From a virus, in the IMG/VR virus record IMGVR_UViG_3300003635_000270, positions 1 through 22,393 of that record: a DNA stretch of 22,393 bases, one strand, 5' to 3'. Position numbers and translations under genes: made by a program. Below, in pieces: positions 1,015 through 15,074 of this stretch. Under the pieces are notes generated by a model that searched no databases, was not told the DNA's origin, and saw only the letters and a list, made by a program, of their open reading frames with translations. Position 1 is the first letter of the stretch. Every line of letters starts with the position of its first letter.

Positions 1015-2262
1015 TTAGAAATCGAGGACTGACTGTCCTTTCGACTCGTACTCTTGCACACTGGAGTCCTTACCGCCCGCCCAATCCTCGTAAGCGGATT
1101 TGTCGAGGTCGAGGACCTCTAATTCGTCTCCCTCAAGACGATGCCGGAGTGCGATTTCTTGACGGTCCTCAACGTCGAGGTCACAGAGCAGGTCGAGATA
1201 GACGTTCTTGAACTGTAGGTAGGACCCGGCGAACTTGAACGTGTCGCCGTCGTAGTCCTTGAGTTTGCGATACACGCGAGCAGTCGGCGTCTCTCCGTCT
1301 GCTTTGTCGAGGCTGTGCCTGAACCACTCCGGGAAGAGGTCAGGGATGTACGACGAGTGTGATTCAGTCAGGCGCACCTCTGCCGTCATGCGTGCAAGCG
1401 AACCCGCATACTTCCAATACCTGTAGTTTCGAGTCGACTGCGCACGTCCCAACCACTTGTCGGCACGCGCCAGACAGTCGTAAGCAACACCTGCCTCGAG
1501 ACCTCGGAATTCTTTCGCCACCGCCTGGTCGAGCCAGATGACCAAGTCATTCGGAGACAGGTCGTACCCCGCGTACTTGTCGCCACCGACGATTTCCGGG
1601 ATAGCGTCGAACGCTCCTTCTTCCCACTCACGTTCGTCGAATCCGAGGGGCACGTCGCTTTCCGCCATCATCTGTAGGTCGTTGATGGCAGAACGCAGGT
1701 CAGGACGTTGAGTGAGGCGTTTCTTGTCATGCTCGTCCAAGTCAACGCCCTCCTTCTTTGCGATTTCTCGAATCTTCGCAGCACGCGACCGCTTCCCGAG
1801 TTTGAACTTCTCGGTGTTCACCCGATTCTTGATGCCGTCAGGCACGTCATACTCCTCGTTAGCAGTGAGGATAATCGGGTTCGCGGGACTGCTCAGTGCG
1901 TCGTACAGCGGTTGCTTGTTGGACGCATGATGCCACCCGTCCACTTCGTCGAGCAGGACGAGTTGCCGCTGCCCGTCAACAGGCGAAGCAGCGATGCTCG
2001 CCGCCATGTCCTCGATATCTTTCGTCTTCCGCGCAGACGAAGCGTTGATTTGGTTGAGCGGCATGTCGAGAACGTCAGAAACGACGTATGCAGTCGTCGT
2101 CTTCCCGGTTCCCGGAGGACCAACCAGTAACTGCCCCTGGGCGCCGGGTTCCCAATCCTCCGCCCATTCTCGAATCCGGTCGAGTGCTGCGTTGTTTCCC
2201 TGAATCTCGCTGAACGACTCAGGACGATACTTGTCTACCCAGGATTCATTATCTTGTGTCAT
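1015..2262 (-). CDS. rfcL: Replication factor C large subunit (clamp loader)
   Basis: This 415-aa AAA+ ATPase matches archaeal RFC large subunits, which load the PCNA clamp on primed DNA. It opens with the conserved WVDKYRP box (residues 8-14). Then come Walker A GPPGTGKT (48-55), Walker B LVLLDEVD (101-108) and a sensor-1-like ILTAN (131-135), followed by a helical collar region. The last residues are GQSVLDF: Gln410 and Leu413 resemble a PCNA-interacting peptide, but the aromatic residue comes two positions after Leu instead of the usual three and is the last residue. The start is 2 nt after the GNAT stop. Archaeal large subunits are usually somewhat longer, so this is a compact form. It pairs naturally with the RFC small subunit at 7108-8091. 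Confidence 0.93.
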   Translation of the reverse strand: MTQDNESWVDKYRPESFSEIQGNNAALDRIREWAEDWEPGAQGQLLVGPPGTGKTTTAYVVSDVLDMPLNQINASSARKTKDIEDMAASIAASPVDGQRQLVLLDEVDGWHHASNKQPLYDALSSPANPIILTANEEYDVPDGIKNRVNTEKFKLGKRSRAAKIREIAKKEGVDLDEHDKKRLTQRPDLRSAINDLQMMAESDVPLGFDEREWEEGAFDAIPEIVGGDKYAGYDLSPNDLVIWLDQAVAKEFRGLEAGVAYDCLARADKWLGRAQSTRNYRYWKYAGSLARMTAEVRLTESHSSYIPDLFPEWFRHSLDKADGETPTARVYRKLKDYDGDTFKFAGSYLQFKNVYLDLLCDLDVEDRQEIALRHRLEGDELEVLDLDKSAYEDWAGGKDSSVQEYESKGQSVLDF

Positions 2263-2264
2263 GG

Positions 2265-2762
2265 TCAGAAGTCGAGTGGGTCCTCAACAGTGTAGTCAGG
2301 TTCCAATTCGCGTTCGTACACGGTCATACGATTCCCGCGGTCAGTGTAATAGTAATCGACTGCGTTGAACCCGTTGTCCTGCCACCAGTCATTACAATCA
2401 GCAGTCGATAGGAGGTCAGCGACCATAACCTCCTTTCCATGCTCCTCAGCGTATGCCACCGCCTCATCGAGCAACGCCGAACCGAGACCTTCACCTCGGT
2501 CCTGCGCAGCGACAGCGATGTTACGGAGACACGCTTCTTCGGGTGACAGGATGTCTGACTCCCGCCACACCATGCACGCGCCAGACACGCGGTCTCCGCG
2601 CAGGAAATACAGGAGACGCCTGTCCTCGCGTCGGGCACAACGCTCGACGTTCTCCCGTCGCACGAACCAGTACAGGTCCTGCTCGATTTCCACGCTACCG
2701 AAGAAGTCGTCTATCTCCTCGAGGCGTTCGTCGCCAGGTTCAGCAACCTGGATTTCTACCAT
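2265..2762 (-). CDS. GNAT-family N-acetyltransferase
   Basis: This 165-aa protein has the GNAT fold signature. Motif A IAVAAQDRGEGLGSALL (82-98) contains the Q-x-x-G-x-G acetyl-CoA pyrophosphate loop (Q87, G90, G92). A strand-helix ending in WWQDNGFNAVDYYY (126-139) is typical of motif B. GNATs transfer the acetyl group of acetyl-CoA to amines, but the substrate cannot be read from sequence. The gene is wedged between polB and rfcL. Its ATG lies inside the last polB codons (7-nt overlap), with a strong GGAGGAGGTG ribosome site encoded by the polB poly-glycine. It ends in DPLDF, close to the tail of RFC-L, which hints at a clamp-associated role. That last point is inference. Confidence 0.85.
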   Translation of the reverse strand: MVEIQVAEPGDERLEEIDDFFGSVEIEQDLYWFVRRENVERCARREDRRLLYFLRGDRVSGACMVWRESDILSPEEACLRNIAVAAQDRGEGLGSALLDEAVAYAEEHGKEVMVADLLSTADCNDWWQDNGFNAVDYYYTDRGNRMTVYERELEPDYTVEDPLDF

Positions 2763-5494
2763 GACAGAACACCTCCTCCTCCGTCGTCGTCTTCATCGTC
2801 GTTACCACCTGCGAACGGGTTACTGTTGTTGGAATCTTCAAGTTCAACTCCCTCCGTTTGAGCGCCTGCTGCCAGTTCGTCGAAGTCCCACCCAACCTCC
2901 TTGAGCATGGGACGAAGCGGGCGGTCAAGCGTCTTCTCGATATGCTTCTCAGCATCGAGGTCGAAGTCGCCCGGAATGTCGTCCCACCACTCAAGCGCGA
3001 GAACGTCGGTGTTGGGTTTCATCGCCGGCGTCTTCTTGATGTAATATATCCACGGTTGGTCGCCGTGCGACCAGTCATACCCGAGATGCTCGTTCGAGTA
3101 GATGGACGCACGAACCGACAACGTGGGCGACGAGTACGAGTTGAGCGGGTCGTTGATGGTTCCCGGTTTTGCGATTTTCCGCAGTTCAATATCCTCGCTA
3201 CGGATATCGTCACACAGTCCTTTGAGGTATTCACTCACCTCCTCAAAGTCAGCATCGTCGAGAATCATCTTGATGACTTCGGGTTGTGCCTCCTCCGTCA
3301 ATTCCGGTGAGTCACTACGTTCTGACTCGTACCCAGTAATAGACGGTTTCGGGACGATGTTACCCGCGTCGTCCTTGATGTACTTGCCCTCCTTCCACAC
3401 GCAACCGCCCGCGTACCGCTTCTTCTTACCGTGCTGGAAGAAGCGACGGAACAGTTTCTCAAACTCGAACGCCCACGCATGGTTCTCGTCGTCGGGCAGG
3501 TTGTGAGGCAGTTCGCTAATGTCGATGAACGGGTGGTCGTCACCGAGACCTATGTCCTCCGCAGCACGCCCAATTTCTTCGTTGATACGACGCTCGACCT
3601 CCTTACCGCGTTCGACGACCTTCTCCATCGCTTCACGTTCAGACAAGTCCTCGAACTCTTCGGGGTCAGCAAGCGACACCATGACCGAGTCAGTGTCACC
3701 GTAGAGCACCTCGTATCCCAGTTCCTCGCATATCTCGACACCCGTCCAAAGGATGAAGCGAGACAACCCGGTGATGGTGTCACCCAATTCCGGAGACGCC
3801 AGGCGGTAATACTTGTTGTTGCTGACTCCGAAGAAGGAGTTCATAATGACCTTCACCGCCGACTGCTTGTGGTCCCACACCTGGTACATCGGTGTGTCCG
3901 GGTCGTACTGATTCCGGTTGTCCTTCATCTCCTCGCGCTCGCTGAACAGCAACTTGAGGTACTTGGGCATGATACCCTCGTCGTCGAGTTTCAACCCCTG
4001 ACCGCGTTCAGCGTCGAAGTCGATATGCTCGCGCTCGATTGTACCACCGAAGTCGTCCTCCTTCTCTGGCATCCACGGGACAATAACGTCTGCCTCGTCG
4101 TTGTCGTTGGTCATCGTCTCCTTCGAGATGTTACCCGTCATAATCGAGGACGGATACAGTGACTTCAGGTCGATAACCCCGACCCACTCAGCGATGCCGG
4201 ACGACGGTGCAAGCACGAGACCTCCTGCCGCGTTGTCTACCTCAACGCCATCCGCGTTCGGGAGAATCTCGTCGTCCTCACGTCGAGACATGACGAACCC
4301 GTCCACGAGACGCATAGCGGAGAACGTGTCGTAAATCGGGACGCCTGTGAGGTCGGACAGTTGGTAGAAGAACCCGTGAATATCCGCCATACCGTCGAGC
4401 GCGACGAGCAACTGCGTGTCGATTATGTTGTACGCCGTCAGTCGACTGCGGTCCTTCTCATACCCTTCGCGGATGTTGATGTCTTCGACCTTGCCGACGC
4501 CCAGTTCCTCGTTCGACACGTAATCCAGCGACTTCGACCGCCAATCGCTGAACACCATCTGGTCGCAGTACGCGCCCATCATGTCGAACCCTGGCAACCC
4601 GTCGATACGACCGACCATCGTCTCGAGGTCGTTTCGGTAGTTGCGTGAGATACCTCCCACGTCAGACAGACGCCACGGGTCGACCCCGCTGAGATTGTCC
4701 ATCCGATTGATGAGGTATCGGTGGTCGAAGTCCTCCCAATTCCACCCGGATAGGAGGTCAGGTCGCACGTCCTCGATGTAGTCGAGGAAGGAATTTAGCA
4801 TCGCCGACTCGCTATCAGCAATCGTCAAGTCGATGTCTGCCTGCACGAACTGAGGCGCTAACTCGTGACCGTTCCAGTGGTCACCGAGATGATGCTTGAC
4901 CTCCTGCGGGTCCACCTCACGCCCCGGGTCGAGTACGAAAACGTCGTACTTGGCGGTGTGCGTGTCGTAGGCGGTAATCATTATGATTTCCCCAGGCGCC
5001 TCGTTCGTAAACTCGTCGAAGTCGATACCGTACTCAGGCAGTGCCTCGATGTCTGCCATGACCACTCGCGGGTCGATTGAGTCAACGTCCGCCTCGTCGA
5101 TATCTGTCTCGACTTCAGAGATGTCGCAGTGCTTCCGGTCAGGTACGCGGATGTAACCCGACAACCCGTAGTCGACTGAGACACGCCGTGAGAACGGGAT
5201 GTCTGCTTCGTATGACACCGAGAAGTCGTCACGGATACTGCTGACGTTCTTCGGTAGTTTCGTCACAACCTTCTTGAGTGGTCGCCCGTCGTACCCTTCG
5301 TACCCATGCTCCTCACGCACCACGCAGTCCTGTGTCGCGCTCTCGTGAGGCGGGACGAACAGATATGGTTCGGTTCCCCCGATGACCGTAACGTCTCGGT
5401 CATCATTCTCGTCGCGTCCGACTACGCGAACGATGGGGTCCCCGTCCTGTTCTTCGTCGTCGAGGTCCGTTACTCGAACCAATTTATCGCTCAT
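2756..5494 (-). CDS. polB: Family B DNA polymerase with 3'-5' exonuclease
   Basis: This 912-aa replicative polymerase is complete. The exonuclease motifs are Exo I DIE (148-150), Exo II NWEDFD (252-257) and Exo III Y355-x3-D359. The polymerase motifs are A, D442-x2-SLYPSS; B, K548-x3-NSFFG (552-556); and C, YGDTDS (598-603). A KKRY element (691-694) follows in the thumb region. All catalytic acids are present, so both polymerase and proofreading activity are expected. The last 25 residues form an Asp/Glu-rich linker with four glycines and end in VLSW, which resembles the C-termini of RFC-L, GNAT, HNH and the winged-helix protein here. The gene starts 21 nt after the HNH stop. Length and motifs are ordinary for a viral or archaeal PolB, and no intein is present. 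Confidence 0.97.
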   Translation of the reverse strand: MSDKLVRVTDLDDEEQDGDPIVRVVGRDENDDRDVTVIGGTEPYLFVPPHESATQDCVVREEHGYEGYDGRPLKKVVTKLPKNVSSIRDDFSVSYEADIPFSRRVSVDYGLSGYIRVPDRKHCDISEVETDIDEADVDSIDPRVVMADIEALPEYGIDFDEFTNEAPGEIIMITAYDTHTAKYDVFVLDPGREVDPQEVKHHLGDHWNGHELAPQFVQADIDLTIADSESAMLNSFLDYIEDVRPDLLSGWNWEDFDHRYLINRMDNLSGVDPWRLSDVGGISRNYRNDLETMVGRIDGLPGFDMMGAYCDQMVFSDWRSKSLDYVSNEELGVGKVEDINIREGYEKDRSRLTAYNIIDTQLLVALDGMADIHGFFYQLSDLTGVPIYDTFSAMRLVDGFVMSRREDDEILPNADGVEVDNAAGGLVLAPSSGIAEWVGVIDLKSLYPSSIMTGNISKETMTNDNDEADVIVPWMPEKEDDFGGTIEREHIDFDAERGQGLKLDDEGIMPKYLKLLFSEREEMKDNRNQYDPDTPMYQVWDHKQSAVKVIMNSFFGVSNNKYYRLASPELGDTITGLSRFILWTGVEICEELGYEVLYGDTDSVMVSLADPEEFEDLSEREAMEKVVERGKEVERRINEEIGRAAEDIGLGDDHPFIDISELPHNLPDDENHAWAFEFEKLFRRFFQHGKKKRYAGGCVWKEGKYIKDDAGNIVPKPSITGYESERSDSPELTEEAQPEVIKMILDDADFEEVSEYLKGLCDDIRSEDIELRKIAKPGTINDPLNSYSSPTLSVRASIYSNEHLGYDWSHGDQPWIYYIKKTPAMKPNTDVLALEWWDDIPGDFDLDAEKHIEKTLDRPLRPMLKEVGWDFDELAAGAQTEGVELEDSNNSNPFAGGNDDEDDDGGGGVLSW

Positions 5495-5515
5495 CTAATC
5501 ACCTATTATCGGTCG

Positions 5516-5812
5516 TCAGTAATCAAGCACGTCATCCACGTCAACCTCGTCTATGGCTTCGGGGTCGGGACACTCAATCCTACCTGTCTCAACAAGACGG
5601 TGGTGCGTCTTGCACAGGGTGATGAGGTTGTCCCGGGTGTGTGCGTTATCTGGGTCGTCGAACTTCTTGACCTTGACAACGTGGTGGACGTGCAGGGGAT
5701 ACTTGACACTCTGACTCTTGCCGCAGATTCGACACTCATGCCCGTCGCGCTCGAGTGCCTCCTCACGTTTCTCTTCCCACGTTTCTCCGTAGTCGCGTCG
5801 TTCATATCCCAT
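5516..5812 (-). CDS. HNH endonuclease
   Basis: This 98-aa protein begins MGYERRDYGETWEE and has a standard HNH/treble-clef arrangement: a CRIC zinc knuckle, the catalytic VHHVV, an Asn in DNLITL, and the closing CKTHH. I chose the ATG at 5810-5812, which follows the upstream nuclease stop directly (TGAGGATG). A GTG at 5866 would add 18 residues overlapping the nuclease. Such small HNH proteins in tailed viruses are nicking or cutting enzymes, either free-standing homing endonucleases or packaging partners. Lying between a RecB-like nuclease and polB, a role in DNA processing seems more likely than packaging. The C-terminus DDVLDY shares the L-x-aromatic ending of PolB and RFC-L. Confidence 0.88.
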   Translation of the reverse strand: MGYERRDYGETWEEKREEALERDGHECRICGKSQSVKYPLHVHHVVKVKKFDDPDNAHTRDNLITLCKTHHRLVETGRIECPDPEAIDEVDVDDVLDY

Positions 5813-5814
5813 CC

Positions 5815-6612
5815 TCAGTATTTCCAATACGAAACGTTCGCCATCGAGGTTTCCTGCGCGGGACACACGTACTCGTAGTCACAGAAGCTACAGTGACCAC
5901 CTGTCTTGGCCGGGAAGTTACCCGCGCCCATCGCTTGCAGCAGCGAACGAGCGTACTGTTTCATCTCCGACCAGCGTTCCTCGGTCGGTTGCAGGTTACG
6001 AATCTCACCGTCGCCGAGGTAGACGAACGTGACGTACTCCGGATACTCCCCGTACTTGTTGAGGTACGCGCCGGCGTATACCATCCCCTGAATCAGTTCC
6101 TCACGCTTCCGGTATTCACGCACGTTACCGTCGCTGTCTTGACGCTTGCCTGTCTTCCAGTCGAGAACACCCTCCCCCGTGACGATGTCCATCTTCGCGT
6201 TGAACCCCTGGTTGACCTCACCACCGACATGATACTGATGTTCCACCTCAAACCCTCGGAACGTCATGTCCTGCGCGTACTTCTCGATGTACTTGGCGGC
6301 GTTGTCGCAGCAATTCAGCCCCGAGTCGTACATCCACTCCGGTATGTCCGGGTCCTTCTCGCGGTAGGCACGTTTGAACCTGTGCGATAGGATACCGCTG
6401 TCTCGTATGCTCTCGTCGTCTAAGAGGGTGTCCTCAATCGCCTCGTGAACCGCCGTCCCCTTTTCTCGATACCCCTTCTCGGGCTTCGTGCGCTTCTCGT
6501 CAGCGGCGTATCCGAACCACCACTTGAGAGGGCACTGGGAGAATGTTTTGACTCTCGATGCTGATAGGTACTCGTCGAACAGGTAGTCGGGTACAGGTCG
6601 TGTCTCGGTCAT
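5815..6612 (-). CDS. PD-(D/E)XK nuclease, RecB/Cas4-like, putative Fe-S protein
   Basis: This 265-aa nuclease resembles the Cas4/AddB/RecB branch. LSASRVKTFSQCP (16-28) is the typical N-terminal S-x-S-R helix with Cys27. GTAVHEAIED (52-61) supplies His56, MDIV supplies Asp142, and LDWKTGK (150-156) supplies the D-x-K core. Q175-x3-Y179 is the family QxxxY motif. Cys241, Cys244 and Cys250 near the C-terminus, together with Cys27, reproduce the four-cysteine C...CxxCx5C pattern that holds a 4Fe-4S cluster in Cas4 and AddB. It probably resects or trims DNA ends for recombination with the Sak4-like and RadA proteins. It overlaps the upstream gene by ATGA and precedes HNH. No cas1 or CRISPR repeats are in the window. 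Confidence 0.9.
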   Translation of the reverse strand: MTETRPVPDYLFDEYLSASRVKTFSQCPLKWWFGYAADEKRTKPEKGYREKGTAVHEAIEDTLLDDESIRDSGILSHRFKRAYREKDPDIPEWMYDSGLNCCDNAAKYIEKYAQDMTFRGFEVEHQYHVGGEVNQGFNAKMDIVTGEGVLDWKTGKRQDSDGNVREYRKREELIQGMVYAGAYLNKYGEYPEYVTFVYLGDGEIRNLQPTEERWSEMKQYARSLLQAMGAGNFPAKTGGHCSFCDYEYVCPAQETSMANVSYWKY

Positions 6613-6920
6613 TTTCTTGTCCTCATCTTTTCCTTTTCTTTGGCAGCGAGGTCCTTCAACGTCGCGCCACCGGCCGCGTCCATGTTCGTTCCGTGCCGTG
6701 CCATCAAGTCGATATTCTCACCGTAGGACAGGGACGTATCGACCTTGGACGTCCAGTCGGTGACTTCGTAGTAAACCGCTGCCGCCTTGACACACTGCCA
6801 CTCGATGAGGGTCAGTTCATCGTCGTTCTGATTCCCCATAGGCAGGCGTCGTATCTCGTCGTCGGTGAGGCGTGCCTGCCCGAGCGGGATTGACTGACCA
6901 CAGCATGAGCAGGTCGGCAT
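6609..6920 (-). CDS. Hypothetical small protein with N-terminal cysteine cluster
   Basis: This 103-aa protein begins MPTCSCCGQSIPLG. Three cysteines at residues 4, 6 and 7 look like half of a zinc knuckle, but no second CxxC pair follows; only Cys43 (WQCVK) is left, so metal binding is uncertain. The middle is predicted helical and the last 20 residues are Lys-rich (KEKEKMRTRK), unusual for this acidic proteome and suitable for nucleic-acid contact. It is translationally coupled to the nuclease by ATGA and lies 2 nt after the preceding 62-aa gene. No family recognised. Confidence 0.75.
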   Translation of the reverse strand: MPTCSCCGQSIPLGQARLTDDEIRRLPMGNQNDDELTLIEWQCVKAAAVYYEVTDWTSKVDTSLSYGENIDLMARHGTNMDAAGGATLKDLAAKEKEKMRTRK

Positions 6921-6922
6921 CG

Positions 6923-7111
6923 TTACTGGATGTCGTCGTCGAACGTGTCCATCTCGTCGTACATCTCATCTATCTCATCGAGTTTCGCAAGCGCCTGCTC
7001 ACCGGACACCTCATGCACCTGCACGAGATGGCGTGCTGCGTCCTTGCGCGACTCGAAGTCGGTTTGGTGATTGAAGCAGTAATACCGACTGTAGTCACCT
7101 GACGGTTTCAC
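6923..7111 (-). CDS. Small C2H2-like zinc-finger protein
   Basis: This 62-aa protein contains C12-x2-H15-x12-H28-x4-H33, spaced like a classical C2H2 finger with His in place of the second Cys. The helix SRKDAARHLVQVH lies where the recognition helix would be. The tail is acidic (DEIDEMYDEMDTFDDD). It starts with GTG, overlapping the rfcS stop as GTGA, so it is translationally coupled to the clamp loader. Mini zinc-finger proteins of this size are common in haloarchaea and their viruses and are usually unassigned. A DNA- or protein-binding helper to the replisome is plausible but unproven. Confidence 0.75.
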   Translation of the reverse strand: MKPSGDYSRYYCFNHQTDFESRKDAARHLVQVHEVSGEQALAKLDEIDEMYDEMDTFDDDIQ

Positions 7112-8091
7112 TGCTCGTACCCCTCGAGTGACACGTACTGAGCAACGTGAAGGTCAGCGAGGAGCGAGTGGAATTGAACGTGCGGGTTCGCGCCTCGCAT
7201 GACGCGCCAGTTCGTCTCCGCTACCTTATCGACCATCTTCGCCTTCACGTCGCCCGGCAGGTCCTTCTTCTTGAGGACCTTGAGGAACGTGTCGCAGAGG
7301 ACGTTTGCCGGGACACCATCCTTCAGAATCTCCACGTCGAGTTGCCGCATAGCGTCGTCCAGGTCACCCTCGATTGCCGTATCTGCTATCTGGTGAACGA
7401 GCGCCTCGTTGACCGTCGAAACGACAACGTTGACGCCGTTCTCGTCGATATGTCCTTCGTACTCTGCCGCCTGCATGCTGTTGATGAGTTTGCGGGCGTC
7501 GCCGTCTGCCGCGTTCACCATCAACTTGAGCGTGTCGTCAGCGACCTTAATATCTTCCTGTTCCGCGACGTTTTTGGAGATTTGAACCAGGTCCTCATCC
7601 CCGAGAGGCGAGATGCTGAACGGAGCACACCGCGACTGGATGGGACCGATAATCTCCGATTTGTAGTTACAGGACAGGAAGAACCGCGTTACGTCCGCGT
7701 GGTCCTCCATGACCCGCCGAAGTGTCTGCTGCGCGTCTTTCGAGAGCGCGTCACACTCATCGAGGAAGATGATTTTGTACTGATGCTCACCGATTGTACC
7801 CTGCACCGCGTAGTCGCTCACCTTGTTCCGGATGGTGTCGATACCACTCTCGTCGGAAGCGTTGATGTCCAGGACGTTGTTTCGCCAGTTATCGGCACCG
7901 TACTTCTCCTTGGCGAACGCCTGAACGAGCGCCGTCTTACCGATACCCTGCTTCCCAGCGAAGAGGACGTGCGGAATCGACTCGTCGTCGAGGAAGTCGC
8001 GCATACGCTTCACGACCTCCCCGTGACCAACTATCTCATCCAGCGTCTGCGGTCTGTACTTTTCAACCCATATCTTATCATCCACGTTCAT
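7108..8091 (-). CDS. rfcS: Replication factor C small subunit (clamp loader)
   Basis: This 327-aa AAA+ protein of the RFC small-subunit family has WVEKYRP (8-14), Walker A GKQGIGKT (46-53), Walker B IIFLDECD (107-114), a sensor-1 Asn142 (SCNY), and the SRC arginine-finger motif QSRC (152-155), followed by the collar domain. It forms the RFC pentamer with the large subunit to load PCNA. Walker A deviates from the usual GPPGxGKT (Pro-Pro replaced by Lys-Gln) but keeps the catalytic GKT. Its first eight residues, MNVDDKIW, are repeated with other codons at the start of the endonuclease gene just upstream, whose stop overlaps this start as TAATG. A GAGGTG ribosome site lies inside the end of the endonuclease gene. 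Confidence 0.95.
   Translation of the reverse strand: MNVDDKIWVEKYRPQTLDEIVGHGEVVKRMRDFLDDESIPHVLFAGKQGIGKTALVQAFAKEKYGADNWRNNVLDINASDESGIDTIRNKVSDYAVQGTIGEHQYKIIFLDECDALSKDAQQTLRRVMEDHADVTRFFLSCNYKSEIIGPIQSRCAPFSISPLGDEDLVQISKNVAEQEDIKVADDTLKLMVNAADGDARKLINSMQAAEYEGHIDENGVNVVVSTVNEALVHQIADTAIEGDLDDAMRQLDVEILKDGVPANVLCDTFLKVLKKKDLPGDVKAKMVDKVAETNWRVMRGANPHVQFHSLLADLHVAQYVSLEGYEQ
8068..8091 (-). repeat. First eight codons of rfcS, second (recoded) copy
   Basis: These 24 nt encode MNVDDKIW, exactly as do the 24 nt at 8613-8636. The copies differ at five third-codon positions (GTG/GTT, GAT/GAC twice, AAG/AAA, ATA/ATC) and nowhere else. Purely synonymous divergence means both were kept as coding sequence or that one was imported from a related gene. 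The AT-rich codons continue to about codon 22 of rfcS (8026), after which the usual GC-rich codons return. Confidence 0.8.
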
Positions 8092-8636
8092 TAGTTGAAC
8101 ACCTCTTCTCGGAAGTATTCTGCACTGTACTTACTGTCTCTGTTCGAGTTTTTACGGAGTTCGTCTCGTGTTTCCATGATTTCCAGGAAGTCGTCTTCGT
8201 CCATCCAGCGATGCTCCCAATTCACGTCGAGTATCGTCTCTACGTCGTTTCGCTTCGCACGAGTATACCCGACGAACGCACGCAGGAACGTGAGAACGCT
8301 CGACCTCGACTGTATCTTGAAATACCATGCGTACCCGTCACCGTCCTGGTCACGGAACGTATGGGTCACATCGAGGTCCTCGCACGCTTGCGCGAGTAAT
8401 CCCTTCACTACCTCGGTTTCCTCGGTGTCCTTCATGCCTATCTCGACCTTCGGTTCAACCCGATAATCGAGACGGAGGGTAGAATCCTTGGACACACCAA
8501 TCCAGATTCCTGCTTCACCATCGAGGATTCCGCCCAGATAGTGTTTGTCTTCTTCGGTCAGTTGCATATTCACGACATGAGCGTTAGACGTATCTGGCAT
8601 TAAGCATCCCGTCCAGATTTTGTCGTCAACGTTCAT
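8091..8636 (-). CDS. LAGLIDADG homing endonuclease inserted at the 5' end of rfcS
   Basis: This 181-aa protein has one LAGLIDADG-type motif, YLGGILDGEAG (33-43), including the metal-binding Asp/Glu position. The later VLTFLRAFVGYTRAKR is typical of the second half of the fold. One motif implies a homodimer. Residues 1-8 (MNVDDKIW) are identical to the RFC small-subunit N-terminus; the enzyme proper probably starts after Trp8, near the Met codons at residues 13 or 24. Its base composition is more AT-rich than the neighbours, which fits recent arrival. Reading: a homing element entered rfcS at the highly conserved W-V-E-K-Y-R-P codons, kept the original start and promoter for itself, and left rfcS with a replacement 5' end. 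An intein is unlikely, because the reading frame stops before rfcS restarts. Confidence 0.85.
   Translation of the reverse strand: MNVDDKIWTGCLMPDTSNAHVVNMQLTEEDKHYLGGILDGEAGIWIGVSKDSTLRLDYRVEPKVEIGMKDTEETEVVKGLLAQACEDLDVTHTFRDQDGDGYAWYFKIQSRSSVLTFLRAFVGYTRAKRNDVETILDVNWEHRWMDEDDFLEIMETRDELRKNSNRDSKYSAEYFREEVFN
8613..8636 (-). repeat. First eight codons of rfcS, upstream copy fused to the endonuclease
   Basis: This copy of the MNVDDKIW codons heads the endonuclease gene. Its codons (GAC, GAC, ATC) are closer to the usage of the surrounding replication genes than those of the downstream copy. It is therefore the better candidate for the original rfcS start. After the Trp codon the sequence departs abruptly from RFC. 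Confidence 0.7.
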
Positions 8637-8683
8637 GCTTCGTTTGTAGTTATCCGCAAAGGGTTATCAGTTGTTTCGTCGAG

Positions 8684-8698
8684 AGAACGGGTCGTTCT
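8684..8698. promoter_or_regulatory. Palindrome upstream of the endonuclease-rfcS pair
   Basis: AGAACGGGTCGTTCT is a 6-bp perfect inverted repeat around a 3-nt centre, in the 66-nt gap between the 60-aa gene and the endonuclease start. No T-run follows on either strand, so an operator is at least as likely as a terminator. The same gap contains GTTATC twice as a direct repeat (about 8649-8676). No clear TATA box is visible. Confidence 0.35.
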
Positions 8699-8702
8699 TG
8701 GC

Positions 8703-8885
8703 TTAGAACGCTTCCGTCTCGGTGTCGTCGTACTCGTCGTTCTCGCGCATGATACGTGCCAGGTTCTCGAACGCTTCTGGAAGTGTGTCACCGTATGCTT
8801 TTACCTCGACCTTCTGCCGGTCGAGGAACGCCACTCCTATTTCTCGCTCGTTCATCGGCTCTCGGATGATTTCTATGTGTTCCAT
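8703..8885 (-). CDS. Small protein, possibly HicB-like fold
   Basis: This 60-aa protein begins MEHIEIIREPMN. The ATG is preceded by a very strong GAGGAGGAAA ribosome site overlapping the tail of the thymidylate kinase gene. The pattern of a beta-strand pair, then VKAYGDTLPEAFENLARIM, resembles the strand-loop-helix of HicB-like proteins (aberrant RNase-H-like half domain), but it is short, lacks a DNA-binding tail, and has no HicA toxin beside it. I treat the resemblance as weak. It ends the tmk transcript just before a palindrome and a 66-nt gap. Confidence 0.7.
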   Translation of the reverse strand: MEHIEIIREPMNEREIGVAFLDRQKVEVKAYGDTLPEAFENLARIMRENDEYDDTETEAF

Positions 8886-8886
8886 G

Positions 8887-9474
8887 TTAGATTTCCTCCT
8901 CAACGATGGCGAGGACCTCTTCACGCACTTCCTTCTTCGACTGCTCACCGTCCACAACCGCGTACTTCGGGTAATCCACGTCTCGCTCGATGAGTTGCTC
9001 GTAGTTCGCCTTGACCTGTTCGAGCATCTCACGCTTCTCGTACTTCTCCTCACCGTCACAGCGTTCGAGCGCGGTGTCCACCGATACGTCGAGGTAGATG
9101 GTCAGGTCCGGGATGTAGTTCCAGGGGCGCATTACATCTGACATCCACGCCACAGGGTCATCGAGGTCGTCCTGCAACTGAACCGGTTGATACGCGAGCG
9201 TCGAGTCAGAGAACCGGTCAGAGACGACGATTCCACCACCCTCGACTGCGGGTTTGATGAACTCTTCTATGTGATAGTGCCTGTCTGCCATGAACAGGAA
9301 GAAGTCAGTGAACGCCGGCGTGTCGTTCCGAAGCGCCTTGCGCACCTGCTTCCCCGTCCAGAACTCAGACGGTTCGCACGTCGTCTCAGCGTCGAACTTT
9401 CGTTTGATGGCCTTAACGACGAGCGTCTTGCCTGCACCGTCGAGACCTTCTACAGTGATGAACGTTCCTGACAT
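8887..9474 (-). CDS. tmk: Thymidylate (dTMP) kinase
   Basis: This 195-aa P-loop kinase phosphorylates dTMP to dTDP, supplying dTTP for replication. Walker A is EGLDGAGKT (9-17), and DRFSDSTLAYQ (86-96) contains the DR[YF] motif that positions dTMP. LTIYLDVSVDTALER is the conserved strand before the LID, and an Arg/Lys-containing LID segment (EEKYEKREM) follows. Length is normal for bacterial and archaeal Tmk. It starts 2 nt after the winged-helix gene stop, with a GAGGTT ribosome site inside the last codons of that gene. The viral copy probably boosts the nucleotide pool during infection. Confidence 0.93.
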   Translation of the reverse strand: MSGTFITVEGLDGAGKTLVVKAIKRKFDAETTCEPSEFWTGKQVRKALRNDTPAFTDFFLFMADRHYHIEEFIKPAVEGGGIVVSDRFSDSTLAYQPVQLQDDLDDPVAWMSDVMRPWNYIPDLTIYLDVSVDTALERCDGEEKYEKREMLEQVKANYEQLIERDVDYPKYAVVDGEQSKKEVREEVLAIVEEEI

Positions 9475-9476
9475 GG

Positions 9477-9929
9477 TTAGAACCTCAGCACGTCGTCTCC
9501 AGTGACCTCAGATGCAGGGTCGCCCAGTCGTTCGAGCAGTCGTCGTCCTTCCTCGGTGACGTAGTAGTACGAACGCCGACCGTCCTTGCGCTCGTTCGCG
9601 TATCCCGCCTTGAGCAACGCTGAGGTCGCGGGACTCGGCTCGAAGTCACCACCTGCCGACAGTTCACGCAGGTCGTAGTTGCTCAGCATGCTGCGCGGCG
9701 AATCCGCGTCGTTGTTGTCGAGGAGGTACAGGCACCGATGAGTCGGGTCGTCGTCTTGCACCGGGAGGTCCGGGTTGTACGAGGTCTCCTCGGCGTCAGT
9801 CAGGTCGCGTGGTTCAGGTTCGCCTTCCCGTTCGAGAACCCGGATATCCCCGTCGAACTCCGGGTTGTTGTAAAGGAACGATACCGCTTCATCTGTCGTC
9901 TCGAAGGTTTTGATGGTGTCTTGCGTCAT
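9477..9929 (-). CDS. Winged-helix protein with L-x-aromatic C-terminus
   Basis: This acidic 150-aa protein begins MTQDTIKTFETTDEA. I chose the ATG at 9927-9929, 2 nt after the primase stop (TAAATATG). Start codons further upstream (to 9980) would overlap the primase and add basic, uncharacteristic residues. The second half looks like a winged helix: ATSALLKAGYANERKDGRR is the likely helix and turn, and SYYYVTEEGRRLLERLG is the wing and last helix, as in PadR/ArsR-like or MarR-like haloarchaeal domains. It could be a DNA-binding regulator or a primase-associated factor. The protein ends GDDVLRF, matching the C-terminal pattern of PolB and RFC-L. Confidence 0.75.
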   Translation of the reverse strand: MTQDTIKTFETTDEAVSFLYNNPEFDGDIRVLEREGEPEPRDLTDAEETSYNPDLPVQDDDPTHRCLYLLDNNDADSPRSMLSNYDLRELSAGGDFEPSPATSALLKAGYANERKDGRRSYYYVTEEGRRLLERLGDPASEVTGDDVLRF

Positions 9930-9931
9930 AT

Positions 9932-11080
9932 TTATTCTACCCATTCTGCCTTGCCACCCGACCAACCGAAGGTCGAGCAATCCTCAGGTTCCTCCTTTCG
10001 CGTGCAGAGACCCAACGACTGAATCGACTGGCACGACATATCGGAGTACCCGCGTTTGTGTATCTGCTTGAGGAATTTCCGTGTCTTCCCACGGTCGGCG
10101 TCAACCCACCCGAGAGACATGAACATCTCCTCAATCTCCTGCCGCGTAAACCCCGCGTTGAACAGGAGAACCGCGCTGTTGAATCGTACCATGTGGTGCG
10201 GATTCGGTTGTACGAGTCGCTCGTACATACAGGGCATCTGAAGTAATTCTTTCAGCATGTTCAGAATACCCTGTCGTTCGTAGTTCTCAACGTCAATCTC
10301 AACCTCGACCTCACCCCGAACCGTCGCACGTTCCTCCAGGTAGTCATCGTACACCTGCATTTCCGGACGCTCCTGCTCGGGGAGCGGAATCTGTCGAGGT
10401 GATTCTGACCACTCGAGCAACTCCTTAACCGTGAGGTTCGCTACCTCACCGCGGGTCATGGGAATCGTATAGAGTTGACACGCCATCGTATGCGTGTCCT
10501 CAGTGATTGACTCACCACGCTCAGAGTCAACGTACACCCGTCGCACGTTCGGAATTCTGAGGATACGCTGAACGTCCCCGATGAGTTGAATATCGAGGGT
10601 GTTCAGGTCCAGTTCGTCGAGGTATCGTCTGACCGTCGTAGCGAGGTGCTGACGCGCCTGCAACTGTTCCTGGTACAGAAGGTGTAGATGTACGCCGAAC
10701 CCGGAGAAAACGCCTACGAGCGGTATTTCCTCACGTTGTGCGCGTTCGGCGACTCTCCGAGCGTCTTCCACGACCTCACCTAAGACCTCCTGCGCGAGGT
10801 CCAGGTCATCTCGCATGAGCATGACCTTCTCATCGTCGCGCTCCGTTCGTGGGAACGCGGCTTCCTTCATCGGTGAATCGAGGTCTATGGAGATTTTGTC
10901 GGACATGACACCGCCACCTTCGGTCAGGTCGAAGTGCGAGATGGTGGCGTACAGGTTACGTTCGCCTTCACACTCCTCGATGACTGCGTCCAGTTCACTG
11001 TCGCTATGGACGGGCCACTGAACCGGGTTACCGACCCGTCGCGGGAACTTACCATACAGCAGGTTTTGAATTGGGTCCAT
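9932..11080 (-). CDS. Single-chain archaeo-eukaryotic primase (PriS-PriL fusion)
   Basis: This 382-aa protein joins both halves of archaeal primase. The N-terminal AEP domain has motif I SIDLDS (D66, D68), motif II SGFGVHLH (126-133) with catalytic His131, and motif III GDVQRILRIPN (Asp169, Arg175). The C-terminal domain matches the PriL Fe-S domain: Cys284 (MPCMYERL), HHMVRF (295-300), Cys350 (MSCQS), Cys359 (LGLC) and Cys368. These four cysteines would hold the 4Fe-4S cluster. Cellular archaea normally use two separate proteins, and a one-chain form is known from Nanoarchaeum equitans. It should make primers for PolB and sits next to the clamp gene. No clear Shine-Dalgarno site precedes it. 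Confidence 0.88.
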   Translation of the reverse strand: MDPIQNLLYGKFPRRVGNPVQWPVHSDSELDAVIEECEGERNLYATISHFDLTEGGGVMSDKISIDLDSPMKEAAFPRTERDDEKVMLMRDDLDLAQEVLGEVVEDARRVAERAQREEIPLVGVFSGFGVHLHLLYQEQLQARQHLATTVRRYLDELDLNTLDIQLIGDVQRILRIPNVRRVYVDSERGESITEDTHTMACQLYTIPMTRGEVANLTVKELLEWSESPRQIPLPEQERPEMQVYDDYLEERATVRGEVEVEIDVENYERQGILNMLKELLQMPCMYERLVQPNPHHMVRFNSAVLLFNAGFTRQEIEEMFMSLGWVDADRGKTRKFLKQIHKRGYSDMSCQSIQSLGLCTRKEEPEDCSTFGWSGGKAEWVE

Positions 11081-11095: not shown

Positions 11096-11953
11096 TTAGT
11101 TCTTGTTGACCGGGCCGATAACGTTCCGGAGCACCTGACCTTCGTACTCGTCCTGGACGACGCAGATAGGCAGTTCCTCCTGCGTCTCGATACGCACGTC
11201 TCCCGAGAGCGTGCCGAAGAGTTCCTCGAACCCCTGGTTGTACTCGTTCGACAGGTCGGGACCTTCGACGTTGTCTGCGTTGAGCGCACCCCACGCGGCG
11301 TTACGTCGCTCATCCTTCCCAACACTCAGGTACAGCTCGCCGTCCTGGATGGTAATCGGGTAGAACTTCGTGTCGTCGTCGTCGTTGACGATGTCCACGA
11401 TACGGTTGATTTCTCGCACGTCCGTCTCGATGAGTGCCTCCATCGGTTCGCCTTCGCCAGTGAGGAACGAGTGAGTGTCCTCGTCGAAACGTCCCACGGC
11501 GTCGAGCGGAACCTCATCGAGGTTCGACTCACTCGCGGGTAGCATGACGCGCGTCTGAATCGCTCCGTGAAACTGAAGCGCGTGACAGAGGCGGTCCTCC
11601 TCGTCACCGAGGAGTGTCAGTTCGACCGTACTGCTCGGGTCGTCCTGCGCGTAGTTGAGATACGTGAGGAAGTCCTCGACGTTGATAATCGCCTCCGCCG
11701 TCCCGTTGTTGTCCTCGATGAGGAGGTCTTGGTCGACCTCGGTCGTGGTCAGGAAACCATCACCGAAGGTCGAGTACGAGATGACACTGTTGTTCTGCTT
11801 GGACGCGAGGAACCGCGCCTCGCCGCCACCGACGTTGACGTACACCTCCGAGTGCACAGCATCGCCAGCAGACGCCTTGAGGGACGCCTTCTTAATCATC
11901 TGCTCGAGTCGGTTCGCGTCGGCCGTGATAGTCGCTTTGGTAACTTCAGTCAT
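11096..11953 (-). CDS. pcna: PCNA-like sliding clamp
   Basis: This acidic 285-aa protein starts MTEVTKATITADANRLEQ. The ATG at 11951-11953 overlaps the HhH gene stop as ATGACTGA. Two similar halves can be seen. The first ends around INVEDFLTYLNYAQD, like the PCNA 'hDhD-hxxhL' element. The second ends with YNQGFEELFGTLSGDVRI and IETQEELPICVVQ, like the C-terminal PCNA strand-helix 'FsldYLkdmlk...evti...e.Pl'. Length is close to PCNA (about 245-250) plus about 35 residues. Identity to cellular PCNA looks low, so the call rests on this pattern plus the presence of RFC-L, RFC-S and PolB. It would tether PolB to DNA. Confidence 0.75.
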   Translation of the reverse strand: MTEVTKATITADANRLEQMIKKASLKASAGDAVHSEVYVNVGGGEARFLASKQNNSVISYSTFGDGFLTTTEVDQDLLIEDNNGTAEAIINVEDFLTYLNYAQDDPSSTVELTLLGDEEDRLCHALQFHGAIQTRVMLPASESNLDEVPLDAVGRFDEDTHSFLTGEGEPMEALIETDVREINRIVDIVNDDDDTKFYPITIQDGELYLSVGKDERRNAAWGALNADNVEGPDLSNEYNQGFEELFGTLSGDVRIETQEELPICVVQDEYEGQVLRNVIGPVNKN

Positions 11954-12446: not shown

Positions 12447-14037
12447 CGCCCCACCGTCCAGGATTACCCTCGATGACTTGCACGTCGCCACCGAGCACTT
12501 CTTCGAGCATCGGGTCCTTGCCCTCGTCCTCGAGGTCACGGATTTCCTCGCACACCTGCTGGTGCTTGTCGAACGTGGGATACCGCAGGCCCGTGTAACT
12601 GTACTTCGACAGCCCGTTCTTCTGCAACTGTCCGATGGGTTCGCCATCAGGACCTTCAACGAAGCGCAGAATCTGGTCGACCTTGTAGGCGTTGTCTCGC
12701 TCGCCCACCGGTTTCTTCGGGTTCCCTTCATCCCCCTCCATGATGGCCTCGTAGTCGTCCGTCTGCATGGCCGTCCAGTAGAAGTGGAACGGGGTGTCAA
12801 TCATTACCTCACGGAAACGCTTGTTGTGGTACCGTTTGATGACTTTCCAGTCACTCTCGCCGGAGCGTCCCATATTCGAGGAGAGGTTGACTTCATCGAG
12901 CGTCTTCCCCTGGTACGCCTTACTGACGTACTTCTGCTTCGACCACTCCCACATCTCGCTCATCGAGTCGACTACGATGGTCCCGCGGTGACCTTTCTCG
13001 AGGTACTTGTGCAGCACCTCAATCGCTTCGTCGAGGGCATCTCGTGCCTCGTCGTAGTCGTCAGGTTGCCAGATGTACGTGACCTTTTCCTCGAACTTCG
13101 AGGCGAGGTTATGTGCTTTCCCCTCCGTGTCGATAATGCACACCGGCTGAGGCATGGTGTACCCGAAGTGAGTTTTACCCTTACCGGGTTCTGCCCACCC
13201 GAGGATACGCCACAGGTACGGTTGCTCTGCTGCCTCACTGGTATCCATGGCGTTCGGCGCGACGTTGCCGATTTCCACGTCTGCGATACCGTCTGGATTC
13301 TCGTCTAACGAAGACACTTCGGTCGTCTCCGGTTCCTCAGTATCGTCCGACGTGTCATCCGTACCTTCGTCGGCGAGGTTCTCTACCCCCAAGTCGTCGA
13401 GTTCATCAGTATCGACTTCCTCGAGGTCGTCGTCCTCCTCAGCATCGTCCATGCCCCACCCGTCACCGTTGTCGCTGTCGTCGGTGTCGTCGGGACTGCT
13501 TGTCGAAGTGCTCTCGGATTCGTTCTCCGGCGTCTCGTCGTCCTGCGACGTAGAGGTAGACGTCTCGTCGTCCTCGCCGGGCGAGGTGTCGTCGGAGTCG
13601 TTTCCCGCGTCATCTACGTCGTCTAACGCCTCTGCTACGTCGTCGTCGGTCGCCCCGTCGTCTCCATCGTCGTCAGGACGAACCTGCTTGAGACGACGCT
13701 CGTACACCTCACACGCAGACGAACGTGTGTCCTGTTCGAGCGCTTTCTCGAGAGCGTCGGTGTCGTCGATTTCTTTGTACTTGTCCTCGATAGTGGACAC
13801 GGTGATGCTCTCCACGTTCTCCGCGTCCACGAGGGAGGCGAACTGAGTGGCGAACCCGACCTCCTTCTCCTCAGTGTCGTCGTCGGCATCCTCCACGTCG
13901 CCCACGTCCGAACCCCATCCTCCAGCGTCGTCGGACGTGTCCTCAGTGGTATCCTCCGCCGCTTCTTCGTTCGCGGTTTCGTCGTCCGCCTCGAGGTCCT
14001 CAGCCTCCAGTTCGTCGTCGTCCATTCCCCAACTCAT
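12439..14037 (-). CDS. Sak4-like recombinase (RecA-fold ATPase) with long acidic N-terminus
   Basis: This 532-aa protein has two parts. Residues about 1-265 are extremely Asp/Glu/Ser/Thr-rich and probably disordered, apart from a possible helical segment near 60-118. WGMDD occurs at 3-7 and 194-198, WGSD at 41-44, and the protein ends RWGDD. Residues about 270-532 form an AAA_24/Sak4-type ATPase: Walker A AEPGKGKT (282-289), CIIDTEGKA (300-308), Walker B TIVVDS (353-358), and WTAMQTDD at the sensor strand. Sak4 proteins are phage single-strand annealing recombinases related to Rad51 that work with SSB. The gene is coupled by ATGA to the SSB-like gene upstream, which supports this. RadA-like identity is excluded by the short core and lack of L1/L2 signatures. 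Confidence 0.82.
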   Translation of the reverse strand: MSWGMDDDELEAEDLEADDETANEEAAEDTTEDTSDDAGGWGSDVGDVEDADDDTEEKEVGFATQFASLVDAENVESITVSTIEDKYKEIDDTDALEKALEQDTRSSACEVYERRLKQVRPDDDGDDGATDDDVAEALDDVDDAGNDSDDTSPGEDDETSTSTSQDDETPENESESTSTSSPDDTDDSDNGDGWGMDDAEEDDDLEEVDTDELDDLGVENLADEGTDDTSDDTEEPETTEVSSLDENPDGIADVEIGNVAPNAMDTSEAAEQPYLWRILGWAEPGKGKTHFGYTMPQPVCIIDTEGKAHNLASKFEEKVTYIWQPDDYDEARDALDEAIEVLHKYLEKGHRGTIVVDSMSEMWEWSKQKYVSKAYQGKTLDEVNLSSNMGRSGESDWKVIKRYHNKRFREVMIDTPFHFYWTAMQTDDYEAIMEGDEGNPKKPVGERDNAYKVDQILRFVEGPDGEPIGQLQKNGLSKYSYTGLRYPTFDKHQQVCEEIRDLEDEGKDPMLEEVLGGDVQVIEGNPGRWGDD

Positions 14038-15074
14038 AGGCTTTGGGTCTCCGTGCTATCGTCGTCGTTGCTTCCGCCGCCGTTACCGTAGTTGTCGTCG
14101 ATGGGCATGGAGATGTACGGAACGATGCCGACCACGTTAATCTGCACCTGACCCTTGTTGTCTCCGCTGTCCTCGCGCGTGATTGTACCGTAGAAGTCAC
14201 ACTGAGAGTCGTTGCCGAACTCCATCAGGTCCGGTTGCGTCCACGCGGTAAGACCCGCGTTCCGGTCATCGCCACCGGTAATCTCCTCACGGAGGTCGTT
14301 CGGGTCGACCACCGTATCGTCGAGGATATTGTAGATGCCGAACGGATTACCGTTCTGCGACTCGCCCTGATAGTGGTCGACCACGTACCCGCTGATACGC
14401 TTGAGGTCGCCTTCGTGTGAGAAGTCATCCGAGTCTCCGACGGACAGGTGGTCACCCACGTCTGCGAGCGTTGCCGCATCCTCGATTTGATTGTTGATGA
14501 CTTTCCGCTTCCCGTCCTTGCTGTCCGGGAGGTCCTCGAAGTCACCTTCTTCTGCCTTCGTCTTGTCCGACGACCAGCACACGTAGATTGGCGTGGGTTC
14601 GGGGTCGCCCGTCGCCTTCACGTCGCCTGTCTCGATGGAATTCCACACCTTCAGTTCGTTGAGCGGACGGAACTTCGCCTTCATGTCGCCCAGGTCAACG
14701 CCGTCGGTTTCGTCGAAGATAAACACCCCGATACCGACTGCTTTGTCGTGAGGATTGACGATGCCATACGCGAACAGAACATCTCGCTCCTCAGTGTTCG
14801 GGTTGTTTCGACCCCATCGCCGGATGCCACCGTGACCGAGTGCGAGAGTCGGAATCTCGACGACTTCACCCGAGAAGGACGACGTGCGGTCCTGACGCAT
14901 GATTTCCGAGCGCACCATACGCACCGCGAAGGACTTGATGGCGTCCTCACTCAGGTCGTCCTCAGCGTTTTTGCGTGCGTCGCTGAGTTTGTTTTGGTAT
15001 CGCTCCTTCAGGTCAGACACGTCCTTCCCCGTGTCGTCTGCGATATCTTGAAGTTCTTGCGCCACGTCCGTCAT
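14034..15074 (-). CDS. Putative ssDNA-binding protein (OB-fold, RPA-like)
   Basis: This 346-aa protein is the first gene of the leftward cluster. It has a good GAGGAG ribosome site before its ATG. A helical N-terminus (1-60) is followed by two beta-rich segments (about 67-150 and 226-325) with the alternating hydrophobic/charged look of OB folds, for example FSGEVVEIPTLAL and RISGYVVDHYQGE. The tail is Gly/Asn/Asp-rich and acidic (NGGGSNDDDSTE), as in many SSB proteins. No zinc-finger cysteines are present. Identity as SSB/RPA rests on this layout and on ATGA coupling to the Sak4-like gene, whose known partners are SSBs. I am sure of the gene, less of the function. Confidence 0.6.
   Translation of the reverse strand: MTDVAQELQDIADDTGKDVSDLKERYQNKLSDARKNAEDDLSEDAIKSFAVRMVRSEIMRQDRTSSFSGEVVEIPTLALGHGGIRRWGRNNPNTEERDVLFAYGIVNPHDKAVGIGVFIFDETDGVDLGDMKAKFRPLNELKVWNSIETGDVKATGDPEPTPIYVCWSSDKTKAEEGDFEDLPDSKDGKRKVINNQIEDAATLADVGDHLSVGDSDDFSHEGDLKRISGYVVDHYQGESQNGNPFGIYNILDDTVVDPNDLREEITGGDDRNAGLTAWTQPDLMEFGNDSQCDFYGTITREDSGDNKGQVQINVVGIVPYISMPIDDNYGNGGGSNDDDSTETQSL

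Follow-up and report, generated by a model that had tools for sequence, protein, structure and literature searches.

A shortened, PIP-like C-terminal tail common to replication and DNA-modification proteins of druskaviruses, and its probable role in docking to a putative viral sliding clamp

The stretch of DNA analysed here, a contig of 22,393 bases (the window), belongs to a tailed virus of haloarchaea (family Druskaviridae), is 78-85% identical in DNA to HVTV-1, HCTV-5, HCTV-1 and HCTV-16, and comprises a leftward replication block and the first of the packaging and virion genes, which run rightward. Five proteins encoded on the minus strand of the replication block end in leucine, one further residue and a terminal aromatic residue. 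These C-termini had been proposed by a sequence-only reading, and translation of the window recovers each of them exactly: the large subunit of the clamp loader replication factor C (RFC-L, gene 1015-2262) ends in QSVLDF (1018-1035), an acetyltransferase of the GNAT fold (2265-2762) in EDPLDF (2268-2285), the polymerase PolB (2756-5494) in GGVLSW (2759-2776) behind a Gly/Asp-rich linker, an HNH endonuclease (5516-5815) in DDVLDY (5519-5536), and a winged-helix, PadR-like protein (9477-9980) in DDVLRF (9480-9497). RFC-L matches the NCBIfam model for the replication factor C large subunit with an E-value of 2.7e-56, under its curated cut-off; the GNAT fold is a Pfam match; and the wing of the winged-helix protein is similar to PadR regulators (E 0.03). 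The small subunit of the clamp loader (RFC-S, 7108-8091, minus strand), which matches its NCBIfam equivalog above the cut-off (E 6.9e-104), ends in SLEGYEQ. A Cas4-like protein ending in SYWKY and the terminase, ending in VNDTW, do not fit the L-x-aromatic pattern and were not counted as carriers.

The tails are conserved in every relative examined, namely the four reference viruses above and the further metagenomic contigs L006, L008 and L021. In the reference viruses QSVLDF of RFC-L is identical, with only synonymous codon changes, GNAT retains EDPLDF and PolB retains GGVLSW; the HNH orthologues end in DDVLDY or DDPLDY and those of the winged-helix protein in DDVLGF or ESVLEF. The metagenomic contigs add VLGF for the winged-helix protein, VLDY for HNH, PLNF for GNAT (EDPLNF in L021) and VLDF for PolB (NGVLDF in L021). 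Throughout, the leucine at position -3 and the aromatic residue at -1 are invariant, and the residue between them is D, S, R, G, E or N. Because this middle residue is free, pooled pN/pS is just slightly lower in the tails (0.28 over the last three codons, 0.23 over the last four) than in the linker (0.34), and the argument from conservation therefore rests on the two fixed positions rather than on pN/pS.

At one of the five tails the sequence is also constrained by a second gene. The ATG start codon of GNAT (2760-2762, minus strand) lies within the last Ser-Trp codons of PolB (tcATGGtag), and PolB ends in SW rather than DF because these codons also serve as the start codon of the second frame. 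The ATG is found in the window and in its Tredecimvirus relatives, and HCTV-1 and HCTV-16 use GTG. The sequence-only reading had cautioned that the final codons of PolB and of the winged-helix gene run into the ribosome-site area of the next gene; for PolB the overlap goes beyond a ribosome site to the start codon itself, and for the winged-helix gene there is none, its stop lying at 9477 and the start of the TMPK gene at 9474, so that the two coding sequences are separate. Contig L021 provides a natural experiment: an extra open reading frame parts PolB from GNAT, whose reading frame starts about 600 bases downstream, the start codon is free of the last two PolB codons, and PolB there ends in VLDF, the family consensus. 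This is a single case, in the predicted direction. Since no other tail in the window overlaps a start codon, an overlap artefact was rejected as the origin of the tails, with the exception of the Ser-Trp of PolB. The insertions between PolB and GNAT differ among viruses, being an HNH endonuclease in HCTV-16 (L004:5517-6101) and another frame in L021 (4376-5131), which has a CxxC motif and a C-terminus resembling HVTV-1 LAGLIDADG proteins; each has its start inside the last part of PolB, as though the overlap were a target of homing genes.

The frequency of the tail was assessed in HVTV-1, for which the 172 annotated coding sequences were translated with the frameshift product excluded. Seven of these proteins end in Lx[FWY], where 1.2 are expected from C-terminal composition (P 2e-4; P 8e-4 by column shuffle), and all seven have the form [VP]Lx[FWY], for which the expectation is 0.13 (P 1e-10), the [VP] having been chosen after the fact. 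When C-termini were scanned without bias for any word of three positions and the counts were compared with internal frequencies, ..VL.F was the sole result (four occurrences against 0.02 expected; P 6e-9, uncorrected for multiple testing). The carriers are concentrated in the leftward replication block (6/18 genes), and none of the 29 virion-block proteins has the tail (Fisher P 0.002); taken as a whole, the observation is stronger than had first been reported. HCTV-5 has eight carriers, and HCTV-1 has six as well as one odd small protein ending in WRLRW. In the control viruses HSTV-1 and HHTV-1 a single protein of 127 ends in Lx[FWY], and not in the [VP] form.

The position of the tail coincides with that of a known docking motif, the PCNA-interacting peptide (PIP) box. 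Cellular haloarchaeal RFC-L, taken like the cellular PolB from a set of four plasmid-borne genes, ends in QSGLSDFM or QTGLGQF, as against QSVLDF in druskaviruses, and haloarchaeal PolB ends in QAGLAQFM or QTGLGAWG, as against GGVLSW. PolB likewise ends in QSGLAQFM in HGTV-1, QSGLGAFI in HSTV-2, QTGLAAFC in HF2 and QTGLGAFV in HRTV-25, and a methyltransferase of HCTV-2 ends in QASLGGYANE where druskavirus methyltransferases end in TDVLDF, RDVLDF or TNVLDF. Thus, the tails of PolB, RFC-L and the methyltransferase sit at the chain end where outside homologues carry the canonical box. The contrast is plainest in RFC-L, where alignment of QSGLSDFM with QSVL-DF shows the loss of one residue between the leucine and the aromatic residue, together with the terminal methionine. 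The canonical box is absent from the last 20 residues of all 172 HVTV-1 proteins. Two genes beyond PolB in HRTV-25, the short gp43 (L028:11602-11733) ends in QTGLGDFV, close to the box of PolB in that virus.

Outside the window the tail is found on further proteins, among which DNA-modifying enzymes predominate, and the clientele is broader than had been proposed. D12-class N6-adenine methyltransferases end in TDVLDF and RDVLDF (HVTV-1 gene 89 and HCTV-5 gene 84), and HCTV-5 gene 48, a member of the same class that lies in another genome region and is 38% identical to the HVTV-1 enzyme across 224 residues, ends in TNVLDF. The tails DNVLEF and SDVLDF occur on a DUF6610 protein (HVTV-1 gene 69, L012:33803-34963) and its orthologues. 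In HVTV-1 this gene adjoins the GTP cyclohydrolase I and preQ0 genes, and a homologue in Mycobacterium phage Knocker (gene 1, L045:1-1317) is the first gene of a preQ0 cluster that includes a queuine tRNA-ribosyltransferase; DUF6610 is thus in or beside the preQ0 clusters of two unrelated virus groups. HVTV-1 DNA contains preQ1 at about 30% of G, and no DpdA has been found in its genome (PMC6884629). The DUF6610 protein is a candidate for the base-inserting enzyme, or its partner, in the formation of HVTV-1 preQ1-DNA. A PDB profile search with it was empty, and an AlphaFold model from three sequences had a pLDDT of 37. The word NSNPF is common to the PolB linker in the window and the N-terminus of HVTV-1 gene 69, both acidic and probably disordered; it is kept in relatives and may be chance. 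Overall, the carriers are replication and DNA-modification proteins from at least seven unrelated families; the presence among them of GNAT, HNH and the winged-helix protein is explained least well.

RFC-L and RFC-S lie together in this block, which leads one to expect a viral clamp. The proposed receptor of the tails, the product of the gene at 11096-11953 (minus strand), which corresponds to gene 101 of HVTV-1, carries the annotation PCNA in the records of HVTV-2 and HCTV-16 (MZ334523, MZ334524), and its global alignment with five PCNAs gives a shuffle z of 3.96, whereas five other proteins of the window score between -0.4 and 1.9. When phage records were searched by tblastn with the clamp of druskaviruses, druskaviruses alone were matched, and the PCNA that can be recognised in other haloviruses fails to retrieve it; therefore, an unusual tail and an unusual clamp co-occur. 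In our judgement 11096-11953 very probably encodes a viral sliding clamp, as the sequence-only reading had assumed from the start; the records of two relatives and the weak signal of the alignment speak in favour, while the profile databases are silent.

These observations suggest that the tail is a short C-terminal docking motif, a shortened PIP box fitted to a diverged viral clamp. We consider this likely on the sequence comparisons, and docking to a clamp is by a wide margin the best of the readings weighed here. The tail would be derived from, or a mimic of, the haloarchaeal box Q-[ST]-G-L-x-x-[FW]-(M), from which it differs by having lost a residue between the leucine and the aromatic residue as well as the hydrophobic residue at the end. 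Its leucine and aromatic residue would seat in a hydrophobic pocket of the putative clamp, with the flexible acidic or Gly-rich linker as a tether. Once the viral RFC had loaded the clamp, PolB, the clamp loader, the HNH nuclease, GNAT and the winged-helix protein, and in relatives the adenine methyltransferases and the DUF6610 protein, could dock in turn, so that DNA would be both copied and chemically modified near the fork. We infer that this clamp is the receptor, that it refuses host-type boxes, and what task each client performs.

Several results weigh against this interpretation. The clamp gene has no match in Pfam, NCBIfam or PDB sequences, where the PCNA of HSTV-1 does match in Pfam and PDB searches, and a PDB profile search gave one chance match (E 0.85). 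AlphaFold modelled the protein from seven close sequences with a pLDDT of 31; Foldseek with this low-confidence model yielded no match at E<=0.001, with PCNA entries only amid noise; and hhalign against a five-sequence PCNA alignment was not significant, the best segment being in register near the C-terminus. RFC-S and the primase are without the tail, and glutamine is kept in RFC-L only. No canonical-box homologue was found for HNH, GNAT or the winged-helix protein, and for these three the motif is therefore the sole argument for recruitment. The earlier proposal of a shortened PIP-like code is well supported, though indirectly, at RFC-L, PolB and the methyltransferase, whose homologues have canonical boxes at the same place, and is less secure at the receptor. 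Two outcomes that would have counted against it, tails that vary among orthologues and tails equally frequent on virion proteins, did not occur. Finally, the viruses sampled are few and closely related, so that the conservation counts do not represent many independent events. Scans of viral contigs for deeper alignments gave close druskaviruses alone, and a scan of genome contigs with RFC-S gave no haloarchaeal relative.

The weak support for the identity of the clamp leaves room for another viral or host hub, such as a receptor of the SSB or primase type, to which the tails would bind with only a convergent likeness to the PIP box; an acidic tail with a terminal aromatic residue indeed resembles those of bacterial SSB and T7 gp2.5. 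This is improbable, since the tails of the clamp loader and the polymerase lie exactly where their cellular homologues have the PCNA box, and since SSB is one protein with many partners, whereas here one tail is found on many proteins. Marginally less probable still is docking to host PCNA, with the tail as a degenerate PIP box tolerated by a shallow haloarchaeal pocket. PIP motifs that deviate from the canonical form are frequent among confirmed ligands, 34% of which are without the glutamine (PMC6881253), and the pocket of H. volcanii PCNA, being shallow, makes relaxed demands on the aromatic residues (PMC2737543); one would not, however, expect a merely relaxed box to keep one form in eight proteins, haloviruses that are without a druskavirus-type clamp retain the canonical PolB box, and the virus supplies its own loader and putative clamp. 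Much less likely than either is a signal at the C-terminus by which early viral proteins are degraded or localised: every carrier lies outside the virion block, but the majority of early proteins are without the tail, homologues hold a docking motif of known function in its place, and the common substrate of the carriers is DNA. The combination of chance, gene overlap and common descent is equally unlikely and already largely refuted, for although the last PolB codons overlap the GNAT start and the genomes compared are related, the tail is enriched, emerges from an unbiased word scan, occurs on unrelated families, and in L021 turns to the consensus once the overlap has moved.

The proposed docking of the tails to the viral clamp invites a bolder extension, which we put forward tentatively and judge somewhat more likely to be wrong than right: the tail may constitute a private code, in which the diverged clamp reads the shortened tail only and ignores host boxes, and captured genes were wired in by gaining a four-residue tail. 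Such genes would include the methyltransferases, DUF6610, GNAT, possibly acting on preQ1-DNA, and the PadR-like winged-helix protein, possibly a transcription coupler of the T4 type. Speculatively, the substrate that GNAT acetylates could be the clamp or the free amine that preQ1 bears in DNA, and by analogy with gp33 and gp55 the winged-helix protein could couple transcription to replication. The open-access literature that we searched contains no prior report of the tail, subscription literature lying outside that search. If the docking interpretation is correct, the virus and its clamp partners have together altered a near-universal docking motif and insulated their replisome from that of the host. 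Furthermore, the four-residue tail would be a handle for picking out, from the unknown genes of viruses, those that encode proteins of the replisome or of DNA modification, as it flags DUF6610 here, and the specificity of clamp motifs would be testable with short peptides at molar salt.

Other C-terminal words were noticed. About twenty short HVTV-1 reading frames of 25-100 residues, located at 2132-5189, 41567-41644, 92608-92790 and 98364-100901 (loci L012 and L013), carry a second word, roughly [EQ]FWDxR[LMW], with FWDARMP, FWDRWCA, FWDRRMP, FWDGRLDA and FWDWRLDDV as examples. [FY]W occurs within the last 24 residues of 24/172 HVTV-1 proteins, against 6.4 expected. This word is possibly another docking code. 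In the window, a leftward protein of 346 residues with no Pfam match (14034-15074) has a C-terminus, TETQSL, that is invariant in all relatives.

The druskavirus tail can be compared with four known systems. The tails of SSB and T7 gp2.5 have an acidic run with Phe at the carboxy terminus. They share with the druskavirus tail an acidic run ending in an aromatic residue, and differ in that each belongs to a single hub protein rather than to many proteins. Shortened clamp motifs with a terminal Phe have precedents in the bacterial beta-clamp motif QL[SD]LF and in QLTLF of Sulfolobus PolB1, which is bound to PCNA2 (PMC3504372, PMC9690074). The druskavirus tails do not fit this pentapeptide, for they have no QL start, their leucine is at -3, and a polar or variable residue precedes the aromatic one. 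In T4, the nearly identical and interchangeable acidic-hydrophobic C-termini of gp43, gp55 and gp33 bind the gp45 clamp via variable linkers (PMC2988020), and the likeness, a common C-terminus on a polymerase and regulators behind linkers that vary, is one of working rather than of homology. Sequence and clamp differ, and T4 couples late transcription, whereas the druskavirus carriers are mostly DNA-modification enzymes and transcription coupling is only possible, via the winged-helix protein. In comparison with the canonical PIP box, Q-x-x-[LIM]-x-x-aromatic (Q[STA]GLxx[FW](M) in haloarchaea), the tail has one residue rather than two between the leucine and the aromatic residue, which is itself terminal, has Val or Pro instead of Gly before the leucine, and is without Gln save in RFC-L. 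It resembles the canonical box in being C-terminal, in combining Leu with an aromatic residue, in its presence on PolB and RFC-L, and in following an acidic, disordered linker.

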